Shown here one piece after another: positions 1-20,238 of a stretch of 20,238 bases of DNA. Made by a program: the position numbers and the translations under genes. The notes under the pieces were generated by a model, which searched no databases, was not told where the DNA came from, and worked only from the letters and a program-made list of their open reading frames with translations. The first letter of the stretch is position 1. The number at the start of each line of letters is the position of its first letter. Origin of the DNA: Promethearchaeota archaeon (lineage in GTDB: Archaea; Asgardarchaeota; Lokiarchaeia; Sigynarchaeales; SOKP01); the NCBI GenBank assembly GCA_030620005.1, contig JAUXAJ010000058.1:1-20238 (forward strand). Direction: 5' to 3'.

Positions 1-938
1 CTAAACCTTGTTGTTCAAGAACTTTTTGCGATTCCCTAATAACCATGTTGCGTGCAGCTTCTATACCATATAACTTTTCAACTTCGTGAATGTGATTTGA
101 AATTGTTCGCGCAGTATCTACGCCTTCAATTTGAATTACCCCTTGCAGGTTTGTCCCTTCTGTTTTAATAACCCATTCCTTAAAATCACCATCTTCCGAG
201 GGTGTTAACAACCCTCGTTTAACGCCTCTGATTCCCTTTACAACTTTTTTCAAAATCTTCTCTCTTAGCTTTTGGAGACTCTGTAGATCTTCAATTCCAG
301 GGTAAATAATTATTGAATTGCCTTCACGCTTTATGGTACCTTTCTTTTTATATCTTTTTAAAATTTCTGGAATGGTCTCAATATCAATCCCCTTGTTTTC
401 ACAGATTTCAGGAATTAGGTTAACTACTAAGGTCCAATTAACGAAATCCAAGTTCACATCGTGAGTAATTTGCTCTATTCTAATTTGTTCAATGCGATTA
501 TGAATTTTGATGGCTTGTTCTTCGCTCTTGTTATAAGGATCTTCCAAATAAATTGTCATGTTTGGCGTGGAAGGGAAACGTCTTGCATCTACAATCTCAA
601 TAAGACGAGGTAAACCTTGGGTTACCGAAAATTCCTCAACTCCAGCGTAATGAAATGTTCGGAGAGTCATTTTTACACGAAAATTAGAGAAACCTAATTT
701 TCTGAGTGCCTGGCTCTCCGATAGATTGGGCTGCAACCGTTCCGACTGGTTCGAATGTTTCTACGATTGCATTGTTGTAATTTACGTAAATTTTATTGAG
801 AAGATATTCTAACTGTTCTTCTTCTAACTCTTCGTCTTTAACCTTATATCTAATTTTTTCAATTAAATCAGCTGGAATGCCATCGTTTTGCAATTCCTTT
901 AAGTATTCATCTAAAATTTTGGCTGTAACTTTTACCAT
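1..938 (-). CDS. rpoA2: RNA polymerase subunit A'' (C-terminal part of the largest subunit), partial, interrupted by a 31-nt insertion
   Basis: A'' carries the C-terminal third of the largest RNA polymerase subunit, including part of the bridge helix/trigger-loop side of the active centre. The first exon (938 to 702) gives 79 residues from an ATG at 938 and ends VGTVAAQSIGEPGTQ, a universal motif. Read straight on, it meets a stop at 686-684 after five foreign residues. The second part starts at 670 with MTLRTFHYAGVEEFSVTQGLPRL, the exact continuation of the motif, and stays open to base 1 (223 codons), so the C-terminus lies outside the window. Deleting 671-701 joins the two with no residue lost or gained. 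Without splicing, the ATG at 670 could start a separate C-terminal polypeptide, but no clear Shine-Dalgarno precedes it. It lies 352 bases downstream of rpoA1 on the same strand. Family assignment is secure; how the halves are joined is inferred. Confidence 0.96.
671..701 (-). other. Candidate 31-nt mini-intron in rpoA2
   Basis: The insertion separates codon CAG (Q of GEPGTQ) from ATG (M of MTLRTFH). Its 5' part is a perfect 8-bp hairpin, AAAATTAG (701-694) with CTAATTTT (687-680), around a 6-nt loop. Exon 1 GCAC (709-706) can pair with intron GTGT (678-675). Exon 1 CGGAGAG (720-714) can pair with exon 2 CTCTCCG (666-660). The resulting order (outer exon helix, 3' junction loop, 4-bp exon-intron helix, 5' junction loop, inner intron hairpin) is the topology of an archaeal bulge-helix-bulge intron, but the loops are larger than the canonical three bases. 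Because both intron and exon 2 begin with A, the excised segment could equally be 670-700. The length is not a multiple of three and the read-through frame hits a stop. Confidence 0.75.
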
Positions 939-1290: not shown

Positions 1291-4200
1291 TCATGATCCT
1301 TTTTCTTTTTTCCATTCCAAAAATCCATTAGTTATTTTTCCCCTCCATTTCGCTTTCTTTCCCGTAGATTCTTCGTATTCTTTCATCAATTTATCGTCAT
1401 CTTGGGATTTTTTTTCTGGTTTCTCTCCTGCTTTTTTCTTGACAATTTTTACCTTTGGAGAAGGCTTTTTTGTAGGTTTCTTTTCTGTTTCCTTCTTGAC
1501 AGTTTTTATCTTTGGAGAAGGCTCTTTTGTGGTTTTTGTTTTTACAACATTTTTCTCTACAGGAGTAGTTTTTATTTCTTTTCGAATTTTCTTTACATCA
1601 AGAGCTTTTGCCTTTAATAGTAAGACATCTAAATTTACTGCATCTCCATGGTCAGTTTTCATGGGGTCAATACCATCGTCGCCAAAACTAAATTGAACGA
1701 TATTTTTATCCGAGTTTCTTACAGTTCCATCGTTCTCAACTACCATATCTTGTAAGGCATTGACAAGGCGCCTCTGCATATAGCCGCTCGTTGAGGTGCG
1801 CACCGCTGTGTCAACCAGACCCTCTCTTCCACCCATGGCATGGAAAAAAAACTCCACGGGTTTTAACCCATTTCGATAGGATGACGATACAAAGCCTCTT
1901 GCCTTAGGAGATAAATCATTTATTTTAAAATGTGGTAAAGTTCTTTGAGCATAACCACGATTAATCCTCTCTCCTCTTATTGCCTGTTGACCTACGACAG
2001 CAGACATCTGACCTAAATTCAATATATTCCCTCGAGCTCCCGATTTAGTCATTATGACAGAATGCGCTTCGTCACCGATATAATCTGCTGCATTTTCTTC
2101 AGCGTTTTTGCGAGCATCTGCCAATTTTCCTCTTATTCTTAACTCTAAAGTCTCTCGCATGGAACGTCCTGGCGCTCTTTTTAAAACGCTTGTATCGTTA
2201 TCGTAATAAGCTTGTATGAGTTTGTGACACGTTTCATTAGCATCGTCTAAAATTTTCTGAATGACATCGTAAGCTTCCCCCTTGACATAAACTTCATCCA
2301 AGCCCATTGTCATCCCATTTTGGCGGATTACATATAAAAGCATTCTAGTGGAGTTGTCTAAAAATTTCCTACCTCTTGAATTGCCGTGATCTTTAACAAT
2401 TCTTTGCAGAATACTATTTGATTGCATTGCGCCATATGAATTTTCGTCAATTGTACCAGTAATTAACTGACCGTTTTTAATCATGACGTAAGCATCATAT
2501 TCACAATCTAATTCTTTACATACTTCACAGTTCTTACAGAACTTGGATTTTACTCTCAAATTTAAATCGTCTGGAAATAGCGTACTAAAGATTTGTTTTC
2601 CAGAATACATCGGCTCCGGATCAGTAATTTCCGGCTTCAATACGTTTATATCAAAATCGGGATTTACTTCAAAAATTCCTCCAGTATATAATAGTTTTAA
2701 CGTATCTTTTTTATTGTATATAGAATCCTTGCTAGTAAATTGAAAAACGCTTGAAATGAAATCTTGAATTCCTCCTAATATTGGTCCACCAAATCTAGGA
2801 GATAAAATATGCTCTTGAACTTTAAGTAACAATTCTGCTTCCGTGCGAGCTTCTTCACTCTGAGGAACGTGCAAATTCATTTCGTCCCCGTCGAAATCTG
2901 CATTATAAGGAGGGCAGACAGTAAGATTTAATCTAAATGTTTTCCCATCCATGATTTTAACTTCATGAGCCATTATAGACATTCTATGTAGCGAAGGTTG
3001 GCGATTAAATAAAACTAAATCTCCATTATTTAAATGACGCTCCACGGAAAAACCGGGTGCCAACATTTCAGCAATGATTTTTCTGTTTTTTACGTAACGA
3101 AGGTCAATCCTTCTACGATCGGTTCGAATTATGTAATTTGCACCAGGATGAATGAGTGGGCCATTTAACACCATTTGCTTCATTTCTTCAATGTTCCAAT
3201 CGTTAACATTTGTTGGAATGGTTAATATTTTGGCAATCGCTATTGGTACCCCTACATCATTTATGCTAATATATGGATTTGGAGTAATCACGCTCCTTGC
3301 TGAAAAATCAACCCTTTTACCACTCAGATTACTTCGAAATCTTCCTTCTTTACCTTTTAATCTTTGAGTTAAGGTCCTTAAAGCCCTACCAGATCGGTGT
3401 CTAGCAGGCGGAATTCCAGATACTTGATTATCAAAATAGGTAGTAATATGATATTGTAATAATTCCCATAAATCTTCAACAATTAGATGAGGTGCTCCTG
3501 CATCAATATTTTCTCTTAATCTTTGATTGATTCTTATAACATCAACTAGTTTATGAGTTAAATCGTCTTCGGAACGAATTCCGCTATCTAATGTGATTGA
3601 AGGTCTCGCACACACAGGAGGTATTGGCAAAACTGTAAAGATAACCCACTCTAAACGGGCATTTTCAGGAGAAATTCCTAATATTCTAAGATCACTGTCG
3701 TTCATTTTTTTAAGTCTTTCCAAAATCTCTATAGGTGTTATTCTACGAGAACCTTTTTTCTCCTCTTCTTCATAAAATGTAGTAGGTTTTTCGATAACAA
3801 TTTTCAATTTCTTTGCACCACAGAATGGGCAAATCTTGGTTTTTCTTGCTCGTTGAAATATCACTTTCGAAAGTTCTTCGTCTCCTTCAAAGTAAATAAT
3901 TTTTTGTTTCATTTGCTCTTTCTTAATATCCTCTTTTTCCTCGTTAGTGAGCATCAACATTGAACATTGTGGGCATATGGAACGCAATACTTTCAATACT
4001 TTTTTTGCGTATCCCACGTGAATAACTGGACGGGCCAACTCAATTTAGGCGAAAGGGACGAAAAGTCCCTAACAATGTCCGAAATGACCCATGCAATTGC
4101 TTACTAAATTACCGCAGGTCTGGCATCTCTGTCCAGGTTCTATCGTGCCCAAGCGCTGATCCATGAGACCCGAGGGAATGGGTAATCCATCTTCATCGTA

Positions 4201-4311
4201 TGTATCAGCAGTAATAATCCGCGCAGAAGACATTCTTCTAATTTCGTTCGGGCTTAATAACCCAAATTTTATCTTTTCTATTATTTTAGTTCGAGTATAA
4301 GTATGGCTCAT
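1291..4311 (-). CDS. rpoA1: RNA polymerase subunit A' (N-terminal part of the largest subunit), interrupted by a 30-nt insertion
   Basis: A' forms the clamp, zinc sites and catalytic Mg2+ site of archaeal RNA polymerase. Exon 1 (4311 to 4075, 79 codons, ATG preceded by GAGGT) contains the zinc motif CxxC-x6-CxGHFGH. It would stop two codons later at TAG 4071-4069. Exon 2 (4044 to 1291) resumes with [12 protein letters not shown] and holds a second CxxC...CxxC zinc pair, the RHRSGRALR and [16 protein letters not shown] blocks, and the catalytic [15 protein letters not shown] (bases about 2865-2906; near residue 459 of the spliced protein). The spliced product is 996 residues, longer than usual for A' because of a C-terminal tail of about 90 residues rich in Lys, Pro and Ser with PSPK repeats. 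Without splicing, TTG at 4038 is the only obvious start for the second half. Family call is certain; splicing is inferred. Confidence 0.97.
1435..1545 (-). repeat. Degenerate internal repeat coding the Lys/Pro-rich tail of A'
   Basis: Two imperfect copies of a unit encoding PSPK(I/V)K(T/I)VKK, each followed by a Lys/Glu/Pro run, lie in the 3' end of rpoA1. The nucleotide copies share blocks such as TTTGGAGAAGGCT on the plus strand (near 1453 and 1512). They form part of a basic, probably disordered extension after the conserved A' core. The last 30 or so residues ([20 protein letters not shown] onward) look less repetitive and may be a small folded or binding module. Confidence 0.6.
4045..4074 (-). 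other. Candidate 30-nt mini-intron in rpoA1
   Basis: The insertion lies between CAT (final H of GHFGH) and ATT (I of IELARP). It begins TGTTAG, giving an in-frame stop. A 6-bp GC-rich stem, AGGGAC (4070-4065) with GTCCCT (4059-4054), closes a 5-nt loop. Exon 1 CGGA (4081-4078) can pair with intron TTCG (4053-4050), and exon 1 GGGTC (4090-4086) with exon 2 GGCCC (4036-4032), again a relaxed bulge-helix-bulge order. A competing fold pairs TTAGG (4072-4068) with CCTAA (4049-4045). Protein continuity fixes the excised segment: other junctions near here give a stop codon, break the frame or lose the conserved His. It shares TTAGG near its 5' end and TTTCGnnTAA near its 3' end with the rpoA2 insertion. 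Confidence 0.78.
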
Positions 4312-4444
4312 AAAGTGAAAACCTCTACAATATTAAATTCACATTTCATGGGAGAAAACATCCTCTAATAATTTTAGGATCATGATTTTAGGATAATAAT
4401 AATGATCATGTAAAAAATAAGTAAATAAACTCTCCACAGTAAAC

Positions 4445-5973: not shown

Positions 5974-6345
5974 TTGTTGAGTGAATACCATTATCATGGA
6001 ATTGCTGCTTTTTCATGCTATAGACGTGTTTTTGAAGAAATAATTGATGAATTACTAGATTTAATTTCAGACCTTATGAATGAAGAGCAAAAAGAAGAAT
6101 TTAAGGCTGGTTTAGCTAAAGAAAAGGAGACTAAAATTGCCGAAAAAAAAATAAAATTCGTAAAAGATTTATTACCACCAATTTTAATAACAGAAGGATT
6201 GTATCCATTACAAATATTACATGAAGAGTTAAGTACAGGAATTCAAGGAAAAACAGATGATGAATGTCTTTTTAGTGCTGAAATTTTAAGAGAAACAATG
6301 TCTAATTTCATATATTTATTAATGGTAACAAAAAACAAAAAATAA
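5974..6345 (+). CDS. Hypothetical helical protein, about 123 aa
   Basis: The frame is open from 5923 to 6345. Protein-like sequence (KLIFFEKGLLSEYHYHGIAA) runs upstream of the first usable start, a TTG at 5974 (or 5977) behind GAGAAAGG. It is soluble, acidic and helical, with the segment FSCYRRVFEEIIDELLDLIS and a central Lys-rich stretch. I do not recognise the family. It lies 140 bases before the restriction-methylation gene on the same strand and might belong to the same island. The lack of an ATG near the true start of similarity leaves the N-terminus uncertain. Confidence 0.5.
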   Translation: MLSEYHYHGIAAFSCYRRVFEEIIDELLDLISDLMNEEQKEEFKAGLAKEKETKIAEKKIKFVKDLLPPILITEGLYPLQILHEELSTGIQGKTDDECLFSAEILRETMSNFIYLLMVTKNKK

Positions 6346-6485
6346 AAAAGAACAATTAAAAAAGACATTGTATCGTATTTTAGATAAACGAAAAAAGAAT
6401 TAATCTCTTTTTCTTCTTATTATTAGTTTAATAGAATAAAATAAAAAAAATAGGACTTATTTATTAATAGATTATAATTTGTTAA

Positions 6486-9400
6486 GTGATTCATGTGTTG
6501 ATTGATGAAAATTTCATAGTTAACGAAATAAAAAAAAAACTCGATGTTCAGTATTATAATAAAGTTATAGATGAAATAAAAGAAATTAAACCAGAATGGA
6601 TGTTGCAGCCTCAAAAACCAGAAAATTTAGTTGAGGATATTTTTAGGAAAATGTTAAAATTACTAAAAATTCCAGAAGATAAAATTGTTTCTCAACAAAG
6701 GGTGAAAATATTCGATGTTTTTAAGGATAAAAATCGATATCCTGATTTTAAATTAATCAAACACAGAAAAAGTGAAAAGGACTTATTGATTGAGCTTGAA
6801 CCGTATAATTCAGATATCTTAGAAGGTGTTAAACAAGCAAAAGAATGGATTCAAGATATAAGAATTGGAAATATCAGCCATGCTTTAGCGATTAATCTGA
6901 ATTGTTTTGTATTAATATATTTTGATGGTCATGATGTAAAAAAAAAAGAGTTGTCCATTAACCAAGCTTGTAGTTTCATTACCGAGGTTATTTTTGGGGA
7001 AAAGATAACTGTAAAAATAGAAGATATTAATAAAATTACTGAGCAGTTCTATAATCAATTTTATGCTTTAATTCATGGTGGAACCTACATTAGTACCAAA
7101 AAAGAGAGAATTACAATTTTAGACAAGGATGCAATTATTAACAATCTAATTTATGCTGAGCGATTAATTGAGGATGAAAAGGTTGAATTCATCTATACAA
7201 TATTTCATCGATTAATTTTTATCAAAATTTTAATAGATTGGGATTTATTTCCAAATATCTTTCCGTATCTAAGAAAAGTACCTGAACATTTAATGCATAC
7301 AGATCTAAACAACCTTTTTTTTAAAACACTCGCTGTTAAAAAAAAGAACAGAGTCAATTTGCCAAAAGAATACATGGACATTCCTTTTTTAAATGGCGGT
7401 CTTTTTAGAAAAACAGATATTGAAAAGAAATCTTCTGATTTAATGATAAAACCAAAATACCTTAAGAAAAACTTCGATTTTTTAGAAGAATACACTTTTC
7501 TTGATAATGGAGATGAGAACTCTTCAATCAATAGTGAGATACTAGGGTATATTTTCGAAAAAACAATTGAATTCAGGAAGGGGACTGGATCTTTTTATAC
7601 CCATAATATAATATGTGATTTCATGTGTGAAAATATATTATTTCCTCACTTTTTATCACGGATAAATGATTACTTAAGAAGCATTGGATATAAAGACGCA
7701 GAATTATTGGAAAACTGTGATGAAATTTACATGCTAAAAGAAAAATCTTTACTGAATATTTACGAGAAGATAATAAAAAACATAAAAGCATGTGATATAT
7801 GTGTTGGTTCTGGTGCATTTTTATTAGCCATGGGAAATTTACTTCTTGATATTCACAAACAAATCTTAACAATATTACATAAAAGAGTAAATGACACCGA
7901 AATAAAACAATTTATTGTGGAGCACAATTTATTTGGTGTTGATTTAATGGTTTCTGCTATTCAAATTTGTCAATTACGGTTATGGTTATGGATTTCAGAA
8001 AATTCAATAGAATTAAAACCTCTTCCTAATATTGAATATAATTTAAGAATTGGTAATACTTTACTTGGATCAGATACAACGATTAATATAAGTACAGTAA
8101 ATTATAAATTTATTAATAAAATAAACAATACTACTTTTTTGGATCTAAATAGTCCCGAATTAAAGCCAGTAATAACTGAATTAAATAAAGGAGCTATAAG
8201 CTTTAAATCCCTTAAGTTATTAAAAACAACATTAATTAATTTATATATATATAGTCACGATCAAAATACTGTATTATTAAAAGATCTAATTGATGGTCTT
8301 AATAAATTAATAATAGATGACGCTGATAGGATTTACTTAGATTACTTAAAAAATATAATTAAAAGCAAAAGATTCTCCAAAAATTTAACAATAGAATTCT
8401 TGAGGAGGTTTAAAGCATTTCATTGGTATTTGGAATTTCCTCAAATATTCCCAAGAGGATTTGATATTATTATAGGAAATCCTCCATATGTATCAACAAA
8501 ATTTATGGAGAAGATTTGGTTAGAACAAGACATACAAGCCCATACTAAAGAACTTAAGAAGAGAAAAAAAAGAATTAAAACACTTAAAACTCAAATTAAA
8601 ATAAAAGAGTACCAAGAGAGAATAGATAAATTACAAGATGAGATTGAAAAAAACCAGACTTTACTTAAAACTGAGTATTATGAAAAAGAAAAGTTATATA
8701 ATTCTATCTATAAGGACTTCTTAAAAAATAATTATAAGTGGACTTATAAGATCTATGATATTTTAGTACCGTTCTTCGAGAGAGGATTTAAACTACTAAA
8801 AAAAAACAAAAAAACATATCTTAGTTTCATTACTTCAAACAAGTTTTTAGCTACTGATTATGGCGAAATTATTCGAAAAGATCTTTTGAATAATTATAAA
8901 ATTGAACTATTAGTAGATATCTCCATGATAAAAGTATTTAAGGACGCATCAGTTTATCCGATCATTATCACTGTTAAAAATGCAAAACCATCTGCTGATT
9001 CATTGATAAATGTTGGTAGATATAAGGATATTAATGAGTTAGGGGGTGAGCTTGTGAAAATTGAACAAGAACGATATAATAAAAAAAAAACAAATTATTT
9101 AATCTATATGTCTTTATACAATGAATCCTTTGAGCTATTTGATAAATTAAATAATCATCCTAATTGTAGTGTTTTAGGAAAAGAATTTAAAAATCACTAT
9201 CGGGAATTCAATTTTACTAATTGGGGTCATTACGAAGCATTCGTAAAGCCGTTCAAAGGAAAAATATTGGGTGACGATTATTATTTGTATATTACAAATA
9301 ATGATTTTAGTCAGTTTCAAATCAATATTTCAGATCAACTTTATTTCCAAAAAAAAATACTTGCTAAGGACAATCCGAAAAAATTACAAATATCTGAAGA

Positions 9401-9983
9401 GAAGTGGAATATCTTTCGTGAAGAATTATTAATGATCAAAGAAGTAGCTTTAGATCTGATATGTAGCATAGGAAAAAATTATGCAAATATAGGAAAAATT
9501 TATGCTCTTAGATTAAAAAATGATTCTGAATTGTCTCATCTTTCGAATTATTATTTTCTTGCACTTTTCAACTCTAAACTCCTTGATTTTTACTTCAGAA
9601 TTGTATTTTGGAACACTCATTTAAGTGGAGGGTATTTAAATTATCACTTTAGTTATTTATCAATTTTACCTATTTTGAAAATTGAAAACACATCTAATGT
9701 ATATAAGAGAATTTTAGTCGTATCTAAGTGCCTTGAAAAGGAATTTGACGATTTAACTAAGTTATTGTTGGATCTCTTGATAATACATGCATATTTTCCT
9801 AACGAACTTAAGATAGATTCAAGTAAATTATTATTTCTTGATAATTTTTCGGGAAGTGAGTTAACCAAGAGAGAAGCAAATGGAATTATCGTGAAAGTAA
9901 AATCCATTGAAAAATATATCATGAAACTTTCTGAACACGATTACAATCAGATTATAATCAACGAAAGACAATTCAAATATTAA
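6486..9983 (+). CDS. Type IIG-like restriction endonuclease/N6-adenine DNA methyltransferase
   Basis: A single 1165-residue polypeptide with the layout of Eco57I/type IIG enzymes, which methylate and cut DNA with one protein. The N-terminus has a PD-(D/E)xK-like block: YPDFKL (residues 85-90) then IELEP (102-106). Next come GSFYTH (368-373), the variant of the usual YTP, then motif I ACDICVGSGAFL (about 435) for S-adenosylmethionine and catalytic motif IV GNPPY (664-668), typical of N6-adenine methylation. A strongly charged coiled coil (about 683-740) is inserted just after motif IV. The last 250 residues resemble a TaqI-type target-recognition domain (YYFLALFNSKLLDFYFR). The GTG at 6486 is chosen because it is the first start after a stop; no Shine-Dalgarno is seen. 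No separate specificity, BREX or phage-defence partner is present. AT content and codon use look higher in A/T than in the flanks, suggesting acquisition. Confidence 0.88.
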   Translation: MIHVLIDENFIVNEIKKKLDVQYYNKVIDEIKEIKPEWMLQPQKPENLVEDIFRKMLKLLKIPEDKIVSQQRVKIFDVFKDKNRYPDFKLIKHRKSEKDLLIELEPYNSDILEGVKQAKEWIQDIRIGNISHALAINLNCFVLIYFDGHDVKKKELSINQACSFITEVIFGEKITVKIEDINKITEQFYNQFYALIHGGTYISTKKERITILDKDAIINNLIYAERLIEDEKVEFIYTIFHRLIFIKILIDWDLFPNIFPYLRKVPEHLMHTDLNNLFFKTLAVKKKNRVNLPKEYMDIPFLNGGLFRKTDIEKKSSDLMIKPKYLKKNFDFLEEYTFLDNGDENSSINSEILGYIFEKTIEFRKGTGSFYTHNIICDFMCENILFPHFLSRINDYLRSIGYKDAELLENCDEIYMLKEKSLLNIYEKIIKNIKACDICVGSGAFLLAMGNLLLDIHKQILTILHKRVNDTEIKQFIVEHNLFGVDLMVSAIQICQLRLWLWISENSIELKPLPNIEYNLRIGNTLLGSDTTINISTVNYKFINKINNTTFLDLNSPELKPVITELNKGAISFKSLKLLKTTLINLYIYSHDQNTVLLKDLIDGLNKLIIDDADRIYLDYLKNIIKSKRFSKNLTIEFLRRFKAFHWYLEFPQIFPRGFDIIIGNPPYVSTKFMEKIWLEQDIQAHTKELKKRKKRIKTLKTQIKIKEYQERIDKLQDEIEKNQTLLKTEYYEKEKLYNSIYKDFLKNNYKWTYKIYDILVPFFERGFKLLKKNKKTYLSFITSNKFLATDYGEIIRKDLLNNYKIELLVDISMIKVFKDASVYPIIITVKNAKPSADSLINVGRYKDINELGGELVKIEQERYNKKKTNYLIYMSLYNESFELFDKLNNHPNCSVLGKEFKNHYREFNFTNWGHYEAFVKPFKGKILGDDYYLYITNNDFSQFQINISDQLYFQKKILAKDNPKKLQISEEKWNIFREELLMIKEVALDLICSIGKNYANIGKIYALRLKNDSELSHLSNYYFLALFNSKLLDFYFRIVFWNTHLSGGYLNYHFSYLSILPILKIENTSNVYKRILVVSKCLEKEFDDLTKLLLDLLIIHAYFPNELKIDSSKLLFLDNFSGSELTKREANGIIVKVKSIEKYIMKLSEHDYNQIIINERQFKY

Positions 9984-10124: not shown

Positions 10125-11582
10125 ATGACTAAGGACGAGCAAGTCTCCTTTGATCTTTTATTTAATCCAAGAAATGCCGCCATATTCGAGGCTAAAAAAA
10201 ATGTTTCCTTTTTCATTGAAGGTTTTAAGAGACAAGGTTATAATTTAGACAATTTGTTTTTAATATCTCCTACAGGAGAAGATTTAGTGGGTCTGAAGTG
10301 TTTCAAATCTTTTAATGAAATACAAACTGATACGATTGATCTCTTGATATTATCTGTTAGAAGAGAACGACTTCTTCAATCTCTTGAAGATATCTTAGCA
10401 CAGAAGAAAATTAATTTCATTCACATATTTACAGCAGGAACAGGAGAATCCGACGATTTAGGAATGAAAATTGAAAGAGATTTAAAAAAATTCTTAGATA
10501 ACCACAAAAACATCAGAATTGTGGGTCCTAATTGCATGGGGTTATATTCTCCTCGTGGAAAAATAGCATATTACTCATCCTTTCCCACTGAGATTGGTAA
10601 TATTGGATTGATATTTCAATCAGGTGATTTACATTCGAAAATGGTTAAATTTGGTTCGAAATTGTATAATCTTAGGTTTTCAAGAGGTATAAGCGTTGGA
10701 AATTGCGTGGATTTACAAATTAGAGACTTTTTGAATGATTTTAACAATGATGATGATACTGATATAATTTGCGTGTATTTTGAAGGAGTATCTACTTTGC
10801 ATGAAAACGAGGGAAAAAAATTATTGAATACATTAAAATCCATGAAAAAACCAGTTTTATTCATGAGAGGTGGGAAAACTAATCGCGCACAAACAGCTGT
10901 CATGACTCACACTGGATCTTTAGGGACAAACAAGAAAATTTGGGACGCGATTTATAAACAAACTCCAATAATTGAAGTTCCATCTTGCTTGGACGACTTG
11001 ATTGACTATGCATATATATTCCATAACATTTTAAATAGGTTTAAAAAATTAAAAAAAGAAGTTTTTTATCCAGAAGGTAAGCGTGCTCTTGTTATTCTGT
11101 GGTCTGGAGGTTTTGGAATATTAGCTACAGATACATTAACAGAATTAGGAATAAAAATGCCTCTTTTCAAAGGTGAAAAGCTAGAACGGTTGAAAAAAGT
11201 TTATCCATCAAAGATTGGGTCGCTTTCAAATCCCTTGGATATGCCTTGGATAACATCTAGAAAAGAATTTTTGATCGTTTCTAAAGCCGCGATTAACGAA
11301 GATATTGATTTAGTAATAATAGAAACAGATTCTTGGAGCGATATGGAAGGTGAACATTTCAAGGGTTATTACAACAATTTAATGAAATTGAAAGAACACA
11401 TCGAAGATCTAAATAAGGTTTTTATTATTATATTGCATCAATATCCAAGCGTATCTCGAGAAAAATTTTACAAAATGCTGATAAACGACGATTTTATCGT
11501 GTATCCTTCGCTTCCAAGAGCCGCAAAGTCGTTTTTAGCGTTTCATGAATATGGAAAAAAGCTAAGAAAACATAAAAATTAA
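10125..11582 (+). CDS. Acyl-CoA synthetase (ADP-forming) alpha-subunit-like protein, paralogue 1
   Basis: The 485-residue protein matches the alpha subunit of archaeal ADP-forming acetyl/acyl-CoA synthetase (acyl-CoA + ADP + Pi giving acid + ATP + CoA) in length and order. It has a CoA-binding-like Rossmann domain (1-140), then IRIVGPNCMGLYSP, then a succinyl-CoA-ligase-like domain with MTHTGSLG. His262 there corresponds to the phosphorylated His257 of the Pyrococcus enzyme. A GGFGILATD motif and a C-terminal domain follow. The normal glycine-rich CoA loop (AVIGAS...G) is replaced by AAIFEAKKNVSFFIEG, so CoA binding is doubtful. The ATP-grasp beta subunit is not fused and not in the window. 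The start follows AAAGGGATAAC. A close paralogue follows 161 bases downstream. It may have a changed substrate or a non-catalytic role. Confidence 0.82.
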   Translation: MTKDEQVSFDLLFNPRNAAIFEAKKNVSFFIEGFKRQGYNLDNLFLISPTGEDLVGLKCFKSFNEIQTDTIDLLILSVRRERLLQSLEDILAQKKINFIHIFTAGTGESDDLGMKIERDLKKFLDNHKNIRIVGPNCMGLYSPRGKIAYYSSFPTEIGNIGLIFQSGDLHSKMVKFGSKLYNLRFSRGISVGNCVDLQIRDFLNDFNNDDDTDIICVYFEGVSTLHENEGKKLLNTLKSMKKPVLFMRGGKTNRAQTAVMTHTGSLGTNKKIWDAIYKQTPIIEVPSCLDDLIDYAYIFHNILNRFKKLKKEVFYPEGKRALVILWSGGFGILATDTLTELGIKMPLFKGEKLERLKKVYPSKIGSLSNPLDMPWITSRKEFLIVSKAAINEDIDLVIIETDSWSDMEGEHFKGYYNNLMKLKEHIEDLNKVFIIILHQYPSVSREKFYKMLINDDFIVYPSLPRAAKSFLAFHEYGKKLRKHKN

Positions 11583-11743: not shown

Positions 11744-13213
11744 ATGATGACGATTGATTCCTTGGATCTATTATTTAAACCAAGAAATGTTGCTATTTTC
11801 GAAGCAAAAAAAAAGTTTTCCTACTTTATAGATGGATTTAAGTCGCAAGGATTTAATGTAAATAATCTATACCTTATATCTCCTTCAGAAAAAGAACTAT
11901 TAGGCTTGAAGTGTTATCAATCGTTTGATGATCTCCCAATTGATACGATAGACTTGTTAATATTAGCTGTTGGAAGAGTGAAAGTTGTTCAGACTTTAAA
12001 AGATATTTTGAATAAAAAGAAAATACACTTCATACACATATTTACCGCCGGGACAGGGGAATCAGACGAAGAAGGACTAAAAATCGAGAACCAGCTTAAG
12101 GATATAGTTGATAATAATCCCGTAAGATGTATCGGACCAAATTGCATGGGCTTGTATTGCCCAATGGGCCATAACGCATATCTTCCGATTTTTCCAAAGG
12201 AAAGTGGAAATATTGGATTGATTTACCATTCTGGAGATTTAACCACGAGAACCATAATGTATGGAAACATAAGGTATGGTCTCACGTTTTCTAAGGCTGT
12301 AAGCATGGGAAATTGTATTAGCTTGCAAGTTTCAGATTTTTTAGAATATTTTAGTCGTGATGATGAAACAGATATAATTTGCATTTATTTTGAAGGTTTT
12401 TCAAGAAATCAAGTGCAGCAAGGAAGAAAATTATACAACATTTTAAAAGAAATTCAGAAGCCAGTTTTAATTCTAAGGGGAGGCAAGACTAAACGAGCAC
12501 AAACGGCAGTTTTAACACATACGGGCTCTTTAGGAACAGACGAAAAGTTTTGGCACGCAATTTACAATCAAACGCCCATAATAGAAGTGGGAAGTTCCCT
12601 AGATGAAATGATCGATTATTTATTCATCTTCTACGATTTTTTCAAGAAAAATAAAAATTTATCTCTTGAACAACAAGTACAGTTTTACCCTAAAGGGAAA
12701 AATGTCCTGGTGATATTATGGTCGGGCGGCTTGGGAATCATTGATGTGGATAAATTAACAGAGTTAGGTCTTAATTTACCCCTGTATGAAGGTAAAACGA
12801 TAGAAAAGTTAATAGAAATTTATCCTCTTAAGATAGGAAGTTTATCAAATCCCTTAGATTTGCCTTGGATTTCGAGAGAAAAAGGATACCACGATTTGAT
12901 TAAAGCAGCAATCACAGAAAACATTGATCTTGTAATAATGCATACTGATGCCATGAGTGGTCGTCGTCGGGATAAAAAACGATTTGACATATTTTATGAC
13001 GGTCTAAAAGAATTAAAAGCACATATAGAATCTTTAAACAAGATTTTAATCATGATTTTGCCCGAATATCCCCTCAGAGATCGTGAGAGGTATTATAAAG
13101 AGCTTATTGGTGACGGGTTCATTGTTTATCCTGATCTTGATAGAGCTGCCAAATCGTTTTTAGCGCTACATGAATATGGAAAAAAATTAAAAAAAATTAC
13201 TTTCAAATCTTAA
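11744..13213 (+). CDS. Acyl-CoA synthetase (ADP-forming) alpha-subunit-like protein, paralogue 2
   Basis: The 489-residue protein is more than half identical by eye to its upstream neighbour and colinear with it over its whole length, a recent tandem duplication. It keeps RCIGPNCMGLYCP, THTGSLG (catalytic-type His259) and WSGGLGIIDVDKLTELG, and shares the damaged CoA loop (VAIFEAKKKFSYFIDG). Shared loss in both copies means the loop changed before the duplication. The final ALHEYGKKLKK matches the end of paralogue 1. The start is ATGATG at 11744/11747, after GATGAGAATGAGAATGA with no real Shine-Dalgarno. The 161 bases between the copies are AT-rich and could hold their own promoter. No beta subunit is nearby. 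Confidence 0.82.
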   Translation: MMTIDSLDLLFKPRNVAIFEAKKKFSYFIDGFKSQGFNVNNLYLISPSEKELLGLKCYQSFDDLPIDTIDLLILAVGRVKVVQTLKDILNKKKIHFIHIFTAGTGESDEEGLKIENQLKDIVDNNPVRCIGPNCMGLYCPMGHNAYLPIFPKESGNIGLIYHSGDLTTRTIMYGNIRYGLTFSKAVSMGNCISLQVSDFLEYFSRDDETDIICIYFEGFSRNQVQQGRKLYNILKEIQKPVLILRGGKTKRAQTAVLTHTGSLGTDEKFWHAIYNQTPIIEVGSSLDEMIDYLFIFYDFFKKNKNLSLEQQVQFYPKGKNVLVILWSGGLGIIDVDKLTELGLNLPLYEGKTIEKLIEIYPLKIGSLSNPLDLPWISREKGYHDLIKAAITENIDLVIMHTDAMSGRRRDKKRFDIFYDGLKELKAHIESLNKILIMILPEYPLRDRERYYKELIGDGFIVYPDLDRAAKSFLALHEYGKKLKKITFKS

Positions 13214-13432: not shown

Positions 13433-14005
13433 CTAAGGAACGCGGTCGTAATTTAATCCTTCTTTTTCTAAGATCGCTCTTGTTAATGCTTTAAAACTAT
13501 CCTTTATGTTAATGTTATTTTTAGAAGAAGTTTTAAAGAAGGAGAGAACCTCGTTTTTTTTCACGAACTTGTTAACGAGTAAATCTATTTTTTTTTCCTC
13601 GCTCTTTTTTACTAAATCGCTTTTGGCACCTATTACTATTTTGGGCGTACTACCGTGATTGTATTGCTTTAACTGCTCGTGCCACCAACCTAAATCTAAT
13701 AACGTTTGGAGATCATGTAAATCAAAAACTAAAAAGATTCCATTTGCGCCCCCGATGTAATAGTGAAACATGTTCTTAAAAGCAGGTTTGCCACCAAAAT
13801 CCCAAATTGAAAAGGTAACGAAGGTTTTCGCCCCATCCACGATTATAGGAATATTATGAGAATAAAAATTAACACCTATAGTTAACGAAGTATTAAAGTC
13901 AAATTTATTGAAACATAATCTTTTTACAATACACGTCTTCCCCACGCCACCTTGTCCGAGCAAGCAAAATTTGAAGATATAATATGCCTGTTTTCTTTTA
14001 GTCAT
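13433..14005 (-). CDS. Ras/Rab-like small GTPase
   Basis: A single-domain G protein of 190 residues from the ATG at 14005 (a TTG at 14014 is possible but less likely). Motifs in order: P-loop GQGGVGKT (17-24), switch I Thr in LTIGVNF, switch II WDFGGKPAF (DxxG), a FLVFDLHD strand, G4 as GAKSD in place of NKxD, and G5 TSSKN. The length and order fit the Ras superfamily. Small Rab/Arf-like GTPases are expanded in Asgard archaea and are candidates for membrane or signalling switches. There is no C-terminal Cys for prenylation and no N-terminal Gly for acylation, so membrane attachment is not evident. The G4 Asn, which reads the guanine base, is replaced by Ala, so nucleotide choice may be relaxed. 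Confidence 0.9.
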   Translation of the reverse strand: MTKRKQAYYIFKFCLLGQGGVGKTCIVKRLCFNKFDFNTSLTIGVNFYSHNIPIIVDGAKTFVTFSIWDFGGKPAFKNMFHYYIGGANGIFLVFDLHDLQTLLDLGWWHEQLKQYNHGSTPKIVIGAKSDLVKKSEEKKIDLLVNKFVKKNEVLSFFKTSSKNNINIKDSFKALTRAILEKEGLNYDRVP

Positions 14006-14164
14006 TCTAAACAAAAAAATATCACTTTTAGTGTCTTGATGAAATCATGTTTCTTTCTAGAAATAATTACTACTACCTAAATAAAAATCTATATATTGTC
14101 CAAATTTTCCCGAGAAATCAAGGAAAAAAAAGAATTAATGAATGAAATTTTTGTTAAGATCTTA

Positions 14165-18496: not shown

Positions 18497-19921
18497 TCAT
18501 TTTTGAATGCATTCATTTCTATGGTTTTCTAAAAATTTTTTATAAGAGCACATTTTATCTAGTGCTTTAGCAGTTAATTCGATTGATTCGAATACAGGTA
18601 TTTTCAATTTAAAAAGCTGATTCTTGAAAAGCAGTTTCTGCGCGTAATCACTTGTTTGATCAACAATTTTATAAGCGATACAGATTAGAGGTTTTTTCAT
18701 TTCATAGTATGCTTTTTTGATAGTATTAAGAAATGTGCGGTTATAGTCGTATGTCTTAATAAAGACAACTGCTGAAATATTTGGATCTGAATCTAGTGTT
18801 ATTAAAGTTTTATAAAAAATTTCTGGATTAGCACCACTTGCTCCTAAATCTAAAGGGTTTCTTAGAATAGTATTGACATCGGGAACAAATTCTTTAAACT
18901 TCTCGATTGTATTTTCAGCGAGTTTAGGGACTTTTAAATCATATTGCTCAAAAACATCAGTTGTTTCAACAGAAGCTCCACCTCCCATGGTAGTTATAGC
19001 AAAGTTTCGATTAAGTGGTAATGTTAAATGTTGGAAGGCCATTGCTAAGTTAATTAATTCGTGAGAATTTCTAACTAAACAAGCGCCTGTTTGTTTTGCT
19101 ACTGCGTTCCAAATCTTTAAAGATCCCGCCAAACCTCCAGTGTGAGACATTATGGCTTCCCTAGAAGCTTTTCCGCTTCCAACCTTCCACAGAATAACAG
19201 GCTTTCCTGCCAACGACAACTTTTTGACAATTTCAAAAAATTTTCTACCAATCTCAATACTTTTAATATTTTCTATGTATAACGCTACGATTTTAGTTTC
19301 TTCGTCAGTTAGAAAAAAGGTGAGAAAATCCACAAAATTTAAATCAATCGAATTGCCAATGGAAATGACTTTACTTGGATAAGTTCCATAAATAGAAAGG
19401 CCCATTGCCGTAATATATATGGCAAGACCACCAGATTGGAAGATCATGCCCAAATTTCCGGACTTTGCTTCTAAAAGCCTTAGAGAAAAACCTAACTTAG
19501 CTTTAGGTGAAAATATTCCAAGACAATTGGGACCGATTATTCTAACATTATATTTTTTAACAATGTCAAGAAGTTTTTGTTCTAAATCATCATTTCCTAT
19601 TTCAGAGAATCCAGAAGTGAAAATCGTGACGAAAGGAATTTTTTTCTTTCCACACTCTTCTAAAAGCGCAGGTGTTAATCTAGCTGGAACAGCAAGAATA
19701 ACATAATCAATAGGCTCTTTTTCAGGAACCTCCAATATAGACCCATATATTTTATATCCCTGGAGTTCTTTACCTTTTAAACGAGGATTAAAAAGATATA
19801 TCGGTCGATCAAAACCAATATTCTTTAAGCAGTGAAAAAAATATCCCCCTCCGAAGAGTTTTTCGTTTACACCAATGATTCCAACCGCTCTTGGGTTAAA
19901 TAATTTCTGAAAATCTGTCAT
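18497..19921 (-). CDS. Acyl-CoA synthetase (ADP-forming) alpha-subunit-like protein, paralogue 3
   Basis: The 474-residue protein runs from ATG 19921 and has the same architecture as the tandem pair on the plus strand, but is more distant from them and closer to the classical enzyme. The CoA-binding domain keeps a glycine-containing loop (VGIIGVNEKLFGGGYF). The linker reads VRIIGPNCLGIFSP. The ligase domain has MSHTGGLAGS with His260 at the phospho-His position, then TTMGGGASVETTD and NPLDLG. It likely binds CoA and, with an ATP-grasp beta subunit encoded elsewhere, makes or uses acyl-CoA. It follows a small GTPase gene on the same strand by 65 bases. An AT-rich TATA-like stretch (TTTATTTAATA) in that gap suggests its own promoter. 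Confidence 0.85.
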   Translation of the reverse strand: MTDFQKLFNPRAVGIIGVNEKLFGGGYFFHCLKNIGFDRPIYLFNPRLKGKELQGYKIYGSILEVPEKEPIDYVILAVPARLTPALLEECGKKKIPFVTIFTSGFSEIGNDDLEQKLLDIVKKYNVRIIGPNCLGIFSPKAKLGFSLRLLEAKSGNLGMIFQSGGLAIYITAMGLSIYGTYPSKVISIGNSIDLNFVDFLTFFLTDEETKIVALYIENIKSIEIGRKFFEIVKKLSLAGKPVILWKVGSGKASREAIMSHTGGLAGSLKIWNAVAKQTGACLVRNSHELINLAMAFQHLTLPLNRNFAITTMGGGASVETTDVFEQYDLKVPKLAENTIEKFKEFVPDVNTILRNPLDLGASGANPEIFYKTLITLDSDPNISAVVFIKTYDYNRTFLNTIKKAYYEMKKPLICIAYKIVDQTSDYAQKLLFKNQLFKLKIPVFESIELTAKALDKMCSYKKFLENHRNECIQK

Positions 19922-19986: not shown

Positions 19987-20238
19987 CTATTCCATTTTTT
20001 TAGTTTGTTTTGCATATCTTTCTAAAAGAATTTCAGTCATGACTTGAAATGCTTTTTCAACATTCTCTCCCGTTTTTGAGGAAACTTCAAGAAAAGCAGA
20101 GAGATTATACTTCCTACTCCTCTGAATTCCTTCTTCTCTTGGAACTGCTCGAAATTCTTCTAAATCAATTTTCGAACCCATTAAAATGATTGGAATGTCT
20201 CCTGCATGTTCCCTAATAATATGTGTCCAGTCAGGTAA
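19987..20238 (-). CDS. Ras-like small GTPase, C-terminal part
   Basis: The frame enters from the right edge and gives the last 83 residues. LPDWTHIIREHAGDIPIILM leads into GSKIDL (G4, N replaced by S in NKxD), then the G5 motif VSSKTGENVEKAF and a helical C-terminus ending KQTKKME. This is the second half of a Ras/Rab-like G domain. The P-loop and switches are outside the window. No C-terminal prenylation Cys is present. Confidence 0.85.
   Translation of the reverse strand, partial: LPDWTHIIREHAGDIPIILMGSKIDLEEFRAVPREEGIQRSRKYNLSAFLEVSSKTGENVEKAFQVMTEILLERYAKQTKKME

Follow-up and report, generated by a model that had tools for sequence, protein, structure and literature searches.

The window, by which we mean the whole 20,238-nt stretch of DNA analyzed here, encodes the A' and A'' subunits of RNA polymerase on its minus strand. 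The rpoA' gene raises the question of how an uninterrupted subunit can be made when 30 bases with stop codons lie in its zinc-clamp region. We conclude that this insert is very probably an mRNA intron that would be removed by the tRNA-splicing endonuclease, one of a family of ~30-nt mini-introns with bulge-helix-bulge (BHB) borders in conserved genes of Asgard archaea. The closest rpoA' genes come from Lokiarchaeota MAGs (~80% identity), and the window looks Lokiarchaeal.

Results

A 30-nt insert with two stop codons breaks rpoA'

On the minus strand rpoA' reads ...MGHFGH, C-stop-GLFVPFA-stop, IELARP..., and the insert, TGTTAGG...CGCCTAA, occupies exactly positions 4074-4045 between GHFGH and IELARP, as the first-pass annotation of this DNA had stated (Table 1). 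That annotation had also recognized the in-frame TAG but overlooked the second in-frame stop, the TAA at the end of the insert. The 6-bp GC stem that it described is present as AGGGAC/GTCCCT (4070-4065 with 4059-4054). Its claim that excision restores the family sequence held as well: removal of the 30 nt gives GGA CAT ATT GAG (GHIE), with TTCGGACAT joined to ATTGAG at the predicted spliced junction, and the halves of the protein match the PF04997 profile at positions 2-73 (N-terminal part, 80 aa) and 75-312 (C-terminal part).

Table 1. Features of the window; ^ marks a predicted cut or an insertion site.
Feature	Position	Strand	Detail
rpoA'' exon 2	2..672	-	AAATGACTCTCC..., runs off the window
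rpoA'' putative BHB mini-intron, 31 nt	673..703	-	GGCACTC ^ AAATGACT; site EPGTQ^MTLRT
rpoA'' exon 1	704..938	-	to ...EPGT plus C of the Gln codon
rpoA' exon 2	1291..4044	-	ORF listed from TTG 4038; TIGR02390 over cut-off
rpoA' outer exon-exon helix, exon-2 arm	4026..4043	-	MFE fold
rpoA' 3-nt bulge 2, AA^A	4044..4046	-	predicted 3' cut between 4045 and 4044
rpoA' putative BHB mini-intron, 30 nt	4045..4074	-	between GGACAT and ATTGAG
rpoA' intron in-frame stops	TAG 4071-4069, TAA 4047-4045	-
rpoA' central helix, 3' strand, intron, GCCU	4047..4050	-
rpoA' inner hairpin	4051..4073	-	9-bp arm, 7/9 pairs, loop UUUUC 4064-4060
rpoA' 3-nt bulge 1, AT^T	4074..4076	-	predicted 5' cut between 4075 and 4074
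rpoA' exon 1	4075..4311	-	ORF 4311-4069 runs into the intron, ends GHFGHC-stop
rpoA' central helix, 5' strand, exon 1, GGAC	4077..4080	-	pairs with GCCU 4050-4047
rpoA' outer exon-exon helix, exon-1 arm	4079..4096	-	pairs with 4043-4026 (MFE fold)
Large DNA methyltransferase, akin to BREX PglX and Alw26I-type	6486-9983	+	below NCBIfam cut-offs
ORF with succinyl-CoA-ligase-like and CoA-binding domains	10125-11582	+	profile match
Look-alike ORFs of the 10125-11582 ORF	11744-13213; 18497-19921	+; -	judged by eye; 10125 and 11744 ORFs adjacent
Ras-family small GTPase	13433-14014	-	profile match
GTPase-like ORF, C-terminal part	19987-20238	-	candidate

The insert can be parsed as a BHB intron

We applied the rule, given in passages of PMC2738675, that the cut in a BHB separates bulge residues 2 and 3. 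The rpoA' insert parses as GGAC-AT^T-GTTAGGGAC-TTTTC-GTCCCTTTC-GCCT-AA^A, with the cuts in the canonical register (AT^T ... AA^A). Its central helix forms three of four pairs, with an A x C mismatch, versus four of four in the other four genomes that carry an intron at this site; with its inner helix at 7/9, the window rpoA' intron is among the less regular of the 34 introns described here.

The expectation of the first-pass annotation that the insert and its flanks would fold as a BHB was borne out in part. The exon-intron-exon RNA folded better than 200 of 200 shuffled sequences (z -3.6; 71-73 nt were folded per insert), but the unconstrained MFE fold contained no exon-intron pairs and the central helix was not formed, which is the weakest point of the structure case. 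In the MFE fold, the outer and central helices compete for two bases, which end the exon-1 arm of the former and begin the latter.

A 31-nt hairpin in rpoA'' is a second putative intron

About 3.3 kb downstream of the rpoA' break, a 31-nt hairpin parts EPGTQ from MTLRTFHYAG in rpoA''. It parses as GCAC-TC^A-GAAAATTAG-GTTTCT-CTAATTTTC-GTGT-AA^A, in which the central helix GCAC/GUGU pairs at 4/4, the 9-bp inner helix GAAAATTAG/CTAATTTTC pairs at 9/9 and the bulges are TC^A and AA^A. Excision gives ACT CAA ATG ACT (TQMT), with GGCACTC joined to AAATGAC at the predicted spliced junction. The fold was better than 200/200 shuffles (z -6.3); this and the rpoA' fold surpass their shuffles mostly owing to additional base pairing between the two exons. 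R1, a covariance model built from 16 introns, found the rpoA'' intron without its being in the training set (670-709, E 0.0058), and gave 38.5 bits to the window rpoA' intron, which was in that set. The rpoA'' intron is structurally cleaner than the one in rpoA'. Both the rpoA'' intron (703-673) and the wider family had been overlooked by the first-pass annotation.

rpoA' introns recur at identical bases in relatives

Among 32 loci read at the GHFGH^IE site (site 1), one (L001, genome G001) has an insert, likewise of 30 nt and with 4/4 central pairs, of different sequence at the identical base. Once later genomes were added, the site was occupied in five (the window, G001, G031, G032 and G042). 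Because the site recurs at the identical base with different sequences in relatives, the rpoA' insert is not due to chance. The alignment of relatives at this codon, which had been proposed as a check, thus shows different inserts that keep the BHB pairs: 89.2% of cells are paired in the five-member set, versus 32-49% in slid registers, and 9/13 BHB pairs have changed on both sides, i.e. by compensatory changes.

We searched 83 genomes of the Lokiarchaeal class with PF04997. The domain was found in 76; in six of these (G001, G030, G031, G032, G042 and G051) it contains stops or frame splits, and in a seventh, G082, it is spread over two contigs. A phylum-wide search, in which 48 low scorers were searched again and viewed with the exception of G154, matched in 207/227 genomes and added the carriers G182, G195 and G208. 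In total, we count 12 introns in rpoA', distributed over six sites, and two in rpoA'', each at its own site (window and G002). Among the window and L001-L096, surveyed with one query protein per gene and with distant loci partly covered, short rpoA' and rpoA'' inserts occurred only in Asgard records. An A'' match with an internal stop was obtained in 13 genomes. Upon re-alignment of ten, two (L138 and L155) had a C-terminal stop and the others had no stop in the coding part; the remaining three are G032, G067 and G070. A phylum survey with PF04998 was unusable because this profile spans the A'/A'' boundary, where natural stops confound it.

In G042 (L092), sites 1 and 2 of rpoA' are both occupied, and the two mini-introns are separated by 4 nt of exon. 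The central helix of the second has 3/4 pairs in the unspliced sequence and, by inspection, 4/4 after removal of the first, which suggests that the neighboring introns would be spliced in order. In the protein database, seven A' N-termini encoded on other contigs (P0005, P0026, P0029-P0031, P0033 and P0040) break off or gain residues at rpoA' site 3 (DEDG^...), which suggests that metagenomes contain additional carriers.

Longer inserts are also found in these genes. L090 has inserts between 2884-4382 and 6285-7885, and inserts of ~1.4-1.6 kb in rpoA'/rpoA'' also occur in L041, L064, L164, L171 and L173. The L090 rpoA'' insert follows EPGTQM and matches intein-splicing and LAGLIDADG domains.

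EF-2 and two further genes carry mini-introns

EF-2 (TIGR00490) was matched in 82/83 class genomes, in one over the family cut-off, and a number of the matches listed contain an internal stop and ~30 extra bases. We fetched 20 loci with a stop or split, 17 of which contain introns: 18 introns at five sites, namely TDSD^DEEQERGITI (nine), TD^SDEE (two), ITAH^IDHGKTT (three), DTPGH^VD (three) and HIDHG^KTT (one). These sites fall within or next to conserved GTPase motifs. The predicted junction in G037-like strains is GATTCAGAT joined to GACGAG, and G037 has an EF-2 intron of the same sequence as G042 and G052. In G028 EF-2, one of 13 registers pairs (4/4 and 8/9); that register ends in AA^ and is among the three that restore the protein. 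The three loci without introns showed a TAG substitution (L199), a C-terminal stop (L200) and no insert (L201). In L199, an EF-2 paralogue of G072, a single in-frame TAG replaces a codon, which may be an error, recoding or decay.

Introns were also found in a cis-prenyltransferase gene of G048 (HIGLIIDG^NRRWAKKRN; E 0.072 in the genome scan, and E 0.0014 with R1 not trained on it) and, in a scan of parts of G001, in an aldolase gene (L105; GAVGV^DMGRNIF). The spliced cis-prenyltransferase (PF01255) and aldolase (PF01791) match their families over the whole profile. No internal stop was found in the RpoB domain PF00562, matched in 76/83 class genomes, or among the CBF5 matches listed (83/83 class genomes, 80 over the cut-off). 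In G082 the CBF5 match (C151:7238-8226) falls into two parts separated by 23 nt at about profile position 70, and this gap could be a mini-intron in cbf5. In 48 non-Asgard genomes chosen by record title, 41 of which had EF-2 over the cut-off, no strong match contained a stop; two weak matches to other GTPases did.

Of the thousands of candidates that a first look raised in each genome, the R1 scan scored 80. It gave 26 matches at E <= 1 in 22/83 class genomes, 17 of which were accepted as introns. The nine weak matches not accepted on inspection were in G071, G062, G038, G050, G015, G026 (twice) and G034, with a second one in G001. When R1 was searched against the EF-2 introns of G028, G009, G010 and G082, the aldolase intron and the rpoA' introns of G182, G195 and G030, none was found at E <= 1.

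A loose scan of the window and L001-L116 for ORF-restoring BHB hairpins gave 4163 candidates and was swamped by noise from GC-rich genomes; a strict filter left 12 rows, three of which we judged credible (window rpoA'', L018 and L090). A permissive rescan covering 668,718 bases from G001 and G042 produced 155 matches, whose peptides we judged by eye. Four were inspected closely: L105 was accepted (aldolase), L264 and L112 were rejected, and L255 falls in a zinc-ribbon-like ORF. Real introns may be hidden among the remaining matches. The L255 hairpin (G042:C4, position 3279, reverse strand) is a candidate intron of 30 nt with a UUUUC loop like that in the window.

The introns share a covarying structure

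The collection comprises 34 introns, which occupy 15 sites across five genes (rpoA', rpoA'', EF-2, cis-prenyltransferase and aldolase) in the window and 25 Asgard genomes, 21 of them in the 83-genome class and four (G002, G182, G195 and G208) outside it. All carriers with a named source are metagenome-assembled. The length is 30 nt in 24/34, and the others are 29, 31 (four introns), 32, 33, 35, 50 and 65 nt. The 3' end is AA^ in 30/34; it is AG in G030, in G034 and in EF-2 of G082, and AT at site 1 of G032. The central helix has 4/4 pairs in 27 introns and 3/4 in seven, and the inner helix has at least 7/9 symmetric pairs in 29/34; five or six inner pairs, some via bulges, are formed in the second introns of G042 and G032 and in G030, G182 and G195. 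Exon-exon pairs appear in 26/29 MFE folds, being absent for both introns of G042 and the second of G032. One loop sequence, AUUUC, is found at six of the sites (rpoA' sites 2 and 3, G208, G182, G002 rpoA'' and G048). Its presence at these unrelated sites, in and outside the Lokiarchaeal class, may reflect shared ancestry or a shared recognition factor.

Removal of the intron leaves an open frame that encodes the expected protein in 32/34 flanks as printed. The two G042 introns adjoin closely, and the frame is restored after removal of both. In G208 the canonical register gives Asp for Glu (PIDSG versus PIESG in L016). More than one register restores the frame in G042 second, G030 and G208, for which we chose the canonical one.

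In an alignment of 16 introns, 92.3% of 208 cells are paired, versus 35-40% when the register is slid by 1-3 columns, and changes on both sides occur at 13/13 pairs. Since EF-2 contributes eight of the rows, six at a single site, the alignment represents fewer than 16 independent events. The covariation score is 0.98, versus at most 0.18 in slid registers, and 0/500 shuffles scored as high.

Splicing accounts for the inserts better than the alternatives

We infer that the pre-mRNA is cleaved and ligated and that the spliced protein is used. In the proposed structure the two exons pair to form the outer helix, the central helix joins four bases close to the end of exon 1 with the intron's 3' end, and the intron itself closes a ~9-bp hairpin, so that a 3-nt bulge flanks the central helix on each side. 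The splicing endonuclease for tRNA would cleave each bulge past its second base, and a ligase for RNA, which we presume to be RtcB, would join GGACAU to AUUGAG to yield an uninterrupted A' subunit. The downstream rpoA'' would be spliced in the same way. Two PF01974 genes for the splicing endonuclease are present in 8/8 relatives searched, seven carriers and the intron-free G003. In G001, the ORFs taken as these genes encode 198 and 206 aa, sizes that suit the heterotetramer type. A His is present in the known active-site region of one of them but not of the other. The heterotetramer type is linked to broader specificity in parts of PMC12397907 and to the cbf5 intron in parts of PMC2738675. The compensatory changes at site 1, the canonical register and the two endonuclease genes of the eight relatives together support the tRNA splicing endonuclease reading put forward in the first-pass annotation.

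That annotation had also considered two translational solutions, both of which fare worse. Bypass, in which the ribosome leaves at CAT and lands past the hairpin, is exemplified by phage T4 gene 60 and the yeast mitochondrial byps, and a hairpin and a stop do lie just after the take-off point. Bypass elements, however, have matched take-off and landing codons. In the five site-1 carriers the take-off codon CAT or CAC faces a pre-landing TAA (four genomes) or TAT (one), and since bypass needs neither the conserved exon-intron and exon-exon pairing nor the same design at 15 sites in five genes, we regard it as very improbable. Production of two polypeptides from two ORFs, the second starting at TTG 4038 or similar, has precedent in the split archaeal A'/A'' itself, and gene callers yield such pieces (P0002 and P0024). 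Yet none of the other site-1 carriers keeps the TTG: the third codon reads CTG, CTA and TTA in three of the four and, in G042, is interrupted by the second intron; close sisters have an intact ORF, and it is the BHB register that is conserved instead. Two separate polypeptides are accordingly just as hard to credit.

An assembly or sequencing artefact, or a pseudogene, has a negligible probability, even though the named source records are metagenome assemblies: separate assemblies have inserts at identical bases whose differing sequences keep the structure, G037, G042 and G052 share one EF-2 intron, the truncated protein P0002, which ends just past GHFGHI, has 106 member sequences (at the protein level), and the coding sequence around the inserts has no other break in the loci that we read. 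Other kinds of intervening sequence do not match these features either. The rpoA' insert, 30 nt with two stops, is no intein, and its location in rpoA' sets it apart from the cbf5 intron proper. Group I and II introns have a catalytic core of a few hundred nt; all 34 introns are 29-65 nt, and the window has no Rfam match. Removal by the tRNA-splicing endonuclease is thus the reading that we retain below.

Intron gain, loss and movement

Carriers adjoin intron-free sisters (G001/G049, G031/G033, G042/G038 and G051/G047) in a maximum-likelihood tree of 61 A'+A'' sequences, from which G032 was left out as too incomplete. The identity of rpoA' exons drops near the insertion and recovers with distance. 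Among 32 pairs with at least 90% downstream identity, six of the seven largest drops are those of five carrier/non-carrier pairs (-0.09 to -0.16), two of which share G033, and one carrier/carrier pair (-0.10); the seventh is the intron-free pair G003/G037 (-0.10). Transfer is favored because the low-identity bins extend >100 nt upstream. Carrier flanks are alike only modestly (p 0.02 versus carrier/non-carrier and 0.005 versus intron-free pairs, which are not independent).

The EF-2 drop test, into which 22/34 loci entered and 12 were dropped, comprised 21 pairs. G032/G033 has a clear drop (-0.13; 0.70 in the worst bin versus 0.97), and the other pairs (-0.05 to +0.04) lie inside the intron-free range (-0.05 to +0.04). 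The identical EF-2 intron of G037, G042 and G052, at gene identities of 0.76-0.89, speaks for recent transfer. The upstream flanks name no donor: the intron-free G038 is as close to G037 (0.97) as the carrier G042 is.

The flanks may also be shaped by pairing. The mean duplex energy of the outer exon-exon helix is -16.1 in site-1 carriers (n=5) versus -9.6 in others (n=50; p 0.0008), and three intron-free genomes pair their exons better than any site-1 carrier. Given this stronger pairing at site 1, selection on the exons for the outer helix may explain part of the flank divergence.

The main rival to movement, which leaves splicing untouched, is that the introns are old and inherited and that their patchiness arose from repeated loss. 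Passages of PMC2738675 report loss of the cbf5 intron, and most EF-2 carrier/non-carrier pairs have no clear local drop. After precise loss, however, the flanks should match between genomes no less well than the remainder of the gene does, whereas 5/5 carrier/non-carrier rpoA' pairs drop by 0.09-0.16 and only 1/26 intron-free pairs reaches 0.09. Loss by recombination with an intron-free donor would also give flank divergence. Taken together, we consider repeated loss rather unlikely and lean, with some reserve, toward horizontal gain. For the fuller proposal that these ORF-less BHB mini-introns of ~30 nt form a mobile family, which would spread horizontally with short exon tracts into conserved Asgard codons and be rendered harmless by host tRNA splicing, we find our judgment evenly balanced.

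Discussion

The crenarchaeal cbf5 pre-mRNA intron, reportedly described by Watanabe in 2002, is the closest known system. According to the relevant passages of Yokobori 2009 (PMC2738675), it has a BHB at its borders, is processed by a hetero-oligomeric endonuclease and is confined to one gene in two crenarchaeal orders. The parts of that study on cleavage and distribution describe features common to the Asgard set, namely BHB borders, a cut between bulge residues 2 and 3, and presence or absence between related species; the Asgard set differs from what they describe in comprising five genes and 15 sites, in being mostly 30 nt long and in its horizontal-looking pattern. Parts of PMC7714728, from 2020, name crenarchaeal cbf5 as the one additional archaeal BHB intron then reported beyond tRNA and rRNA and present the BHB in the HVO_1309 5'UTR as an mRNA substrate of Haloferax EndA. 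As described there, HVO_1309 would be the same type of substrate, but its BHB lies in a 5' UTR and the mini-introns lie inside coding sequence.

Introns in tRNA are abundant in the Asgard groups Atabeyarchaeia and Freyarchaeia, where they occur in 92-95% of tRNA genes of three genomes, according to passages of PMC11291895, which cover tRNA introns only. Presumably the same enzymes and BHB logic serve both, but the mini-introns lie in mRNA and their removal restores a frame.

Many 16S rRNA introns of Thermoproteales carry, or derive from, ORFs for homing endonucleases. Homing is a theme of the parts of PMC4496867 on these introns; as portrayed there, they too lie in highly conserved sequence, but the mini-introns are too small to encode anything. 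The passages of PMC12918454 that bear on this subject deal with rRNA. Inteins of A' and A'' occupy the same conserved region, and the rpoA'' insert of G031 follows EPGTQM, beside the site of the window intron; inteins, however, are ~1.5 kb, in-frame and spliced as protein, whereas the mini-introns contain stops and would act as RNA. In open-licence PMC literature, which excludes preprints and subscription papers, we found no report of such introns in Asgard mRNAs.

By these results, the annotation of some core Asgard genes is fragmented, and the tRNA endonuclease probably splices mRNAs much more widely than thought. Intron gain and loss in conserved genes can be traced between sister species, and the motif rule can be used to look for more introns in existing genomes. 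Whether a minimal, protein-spliced intron, i.e. one removed by protein enzymes, can invade essential genes and move becomes testable. In Asgard archaea, the archaea closest to eukaryotes, the mini-introns suggest a little-noticed, perhaps moving class of mRNA introns.
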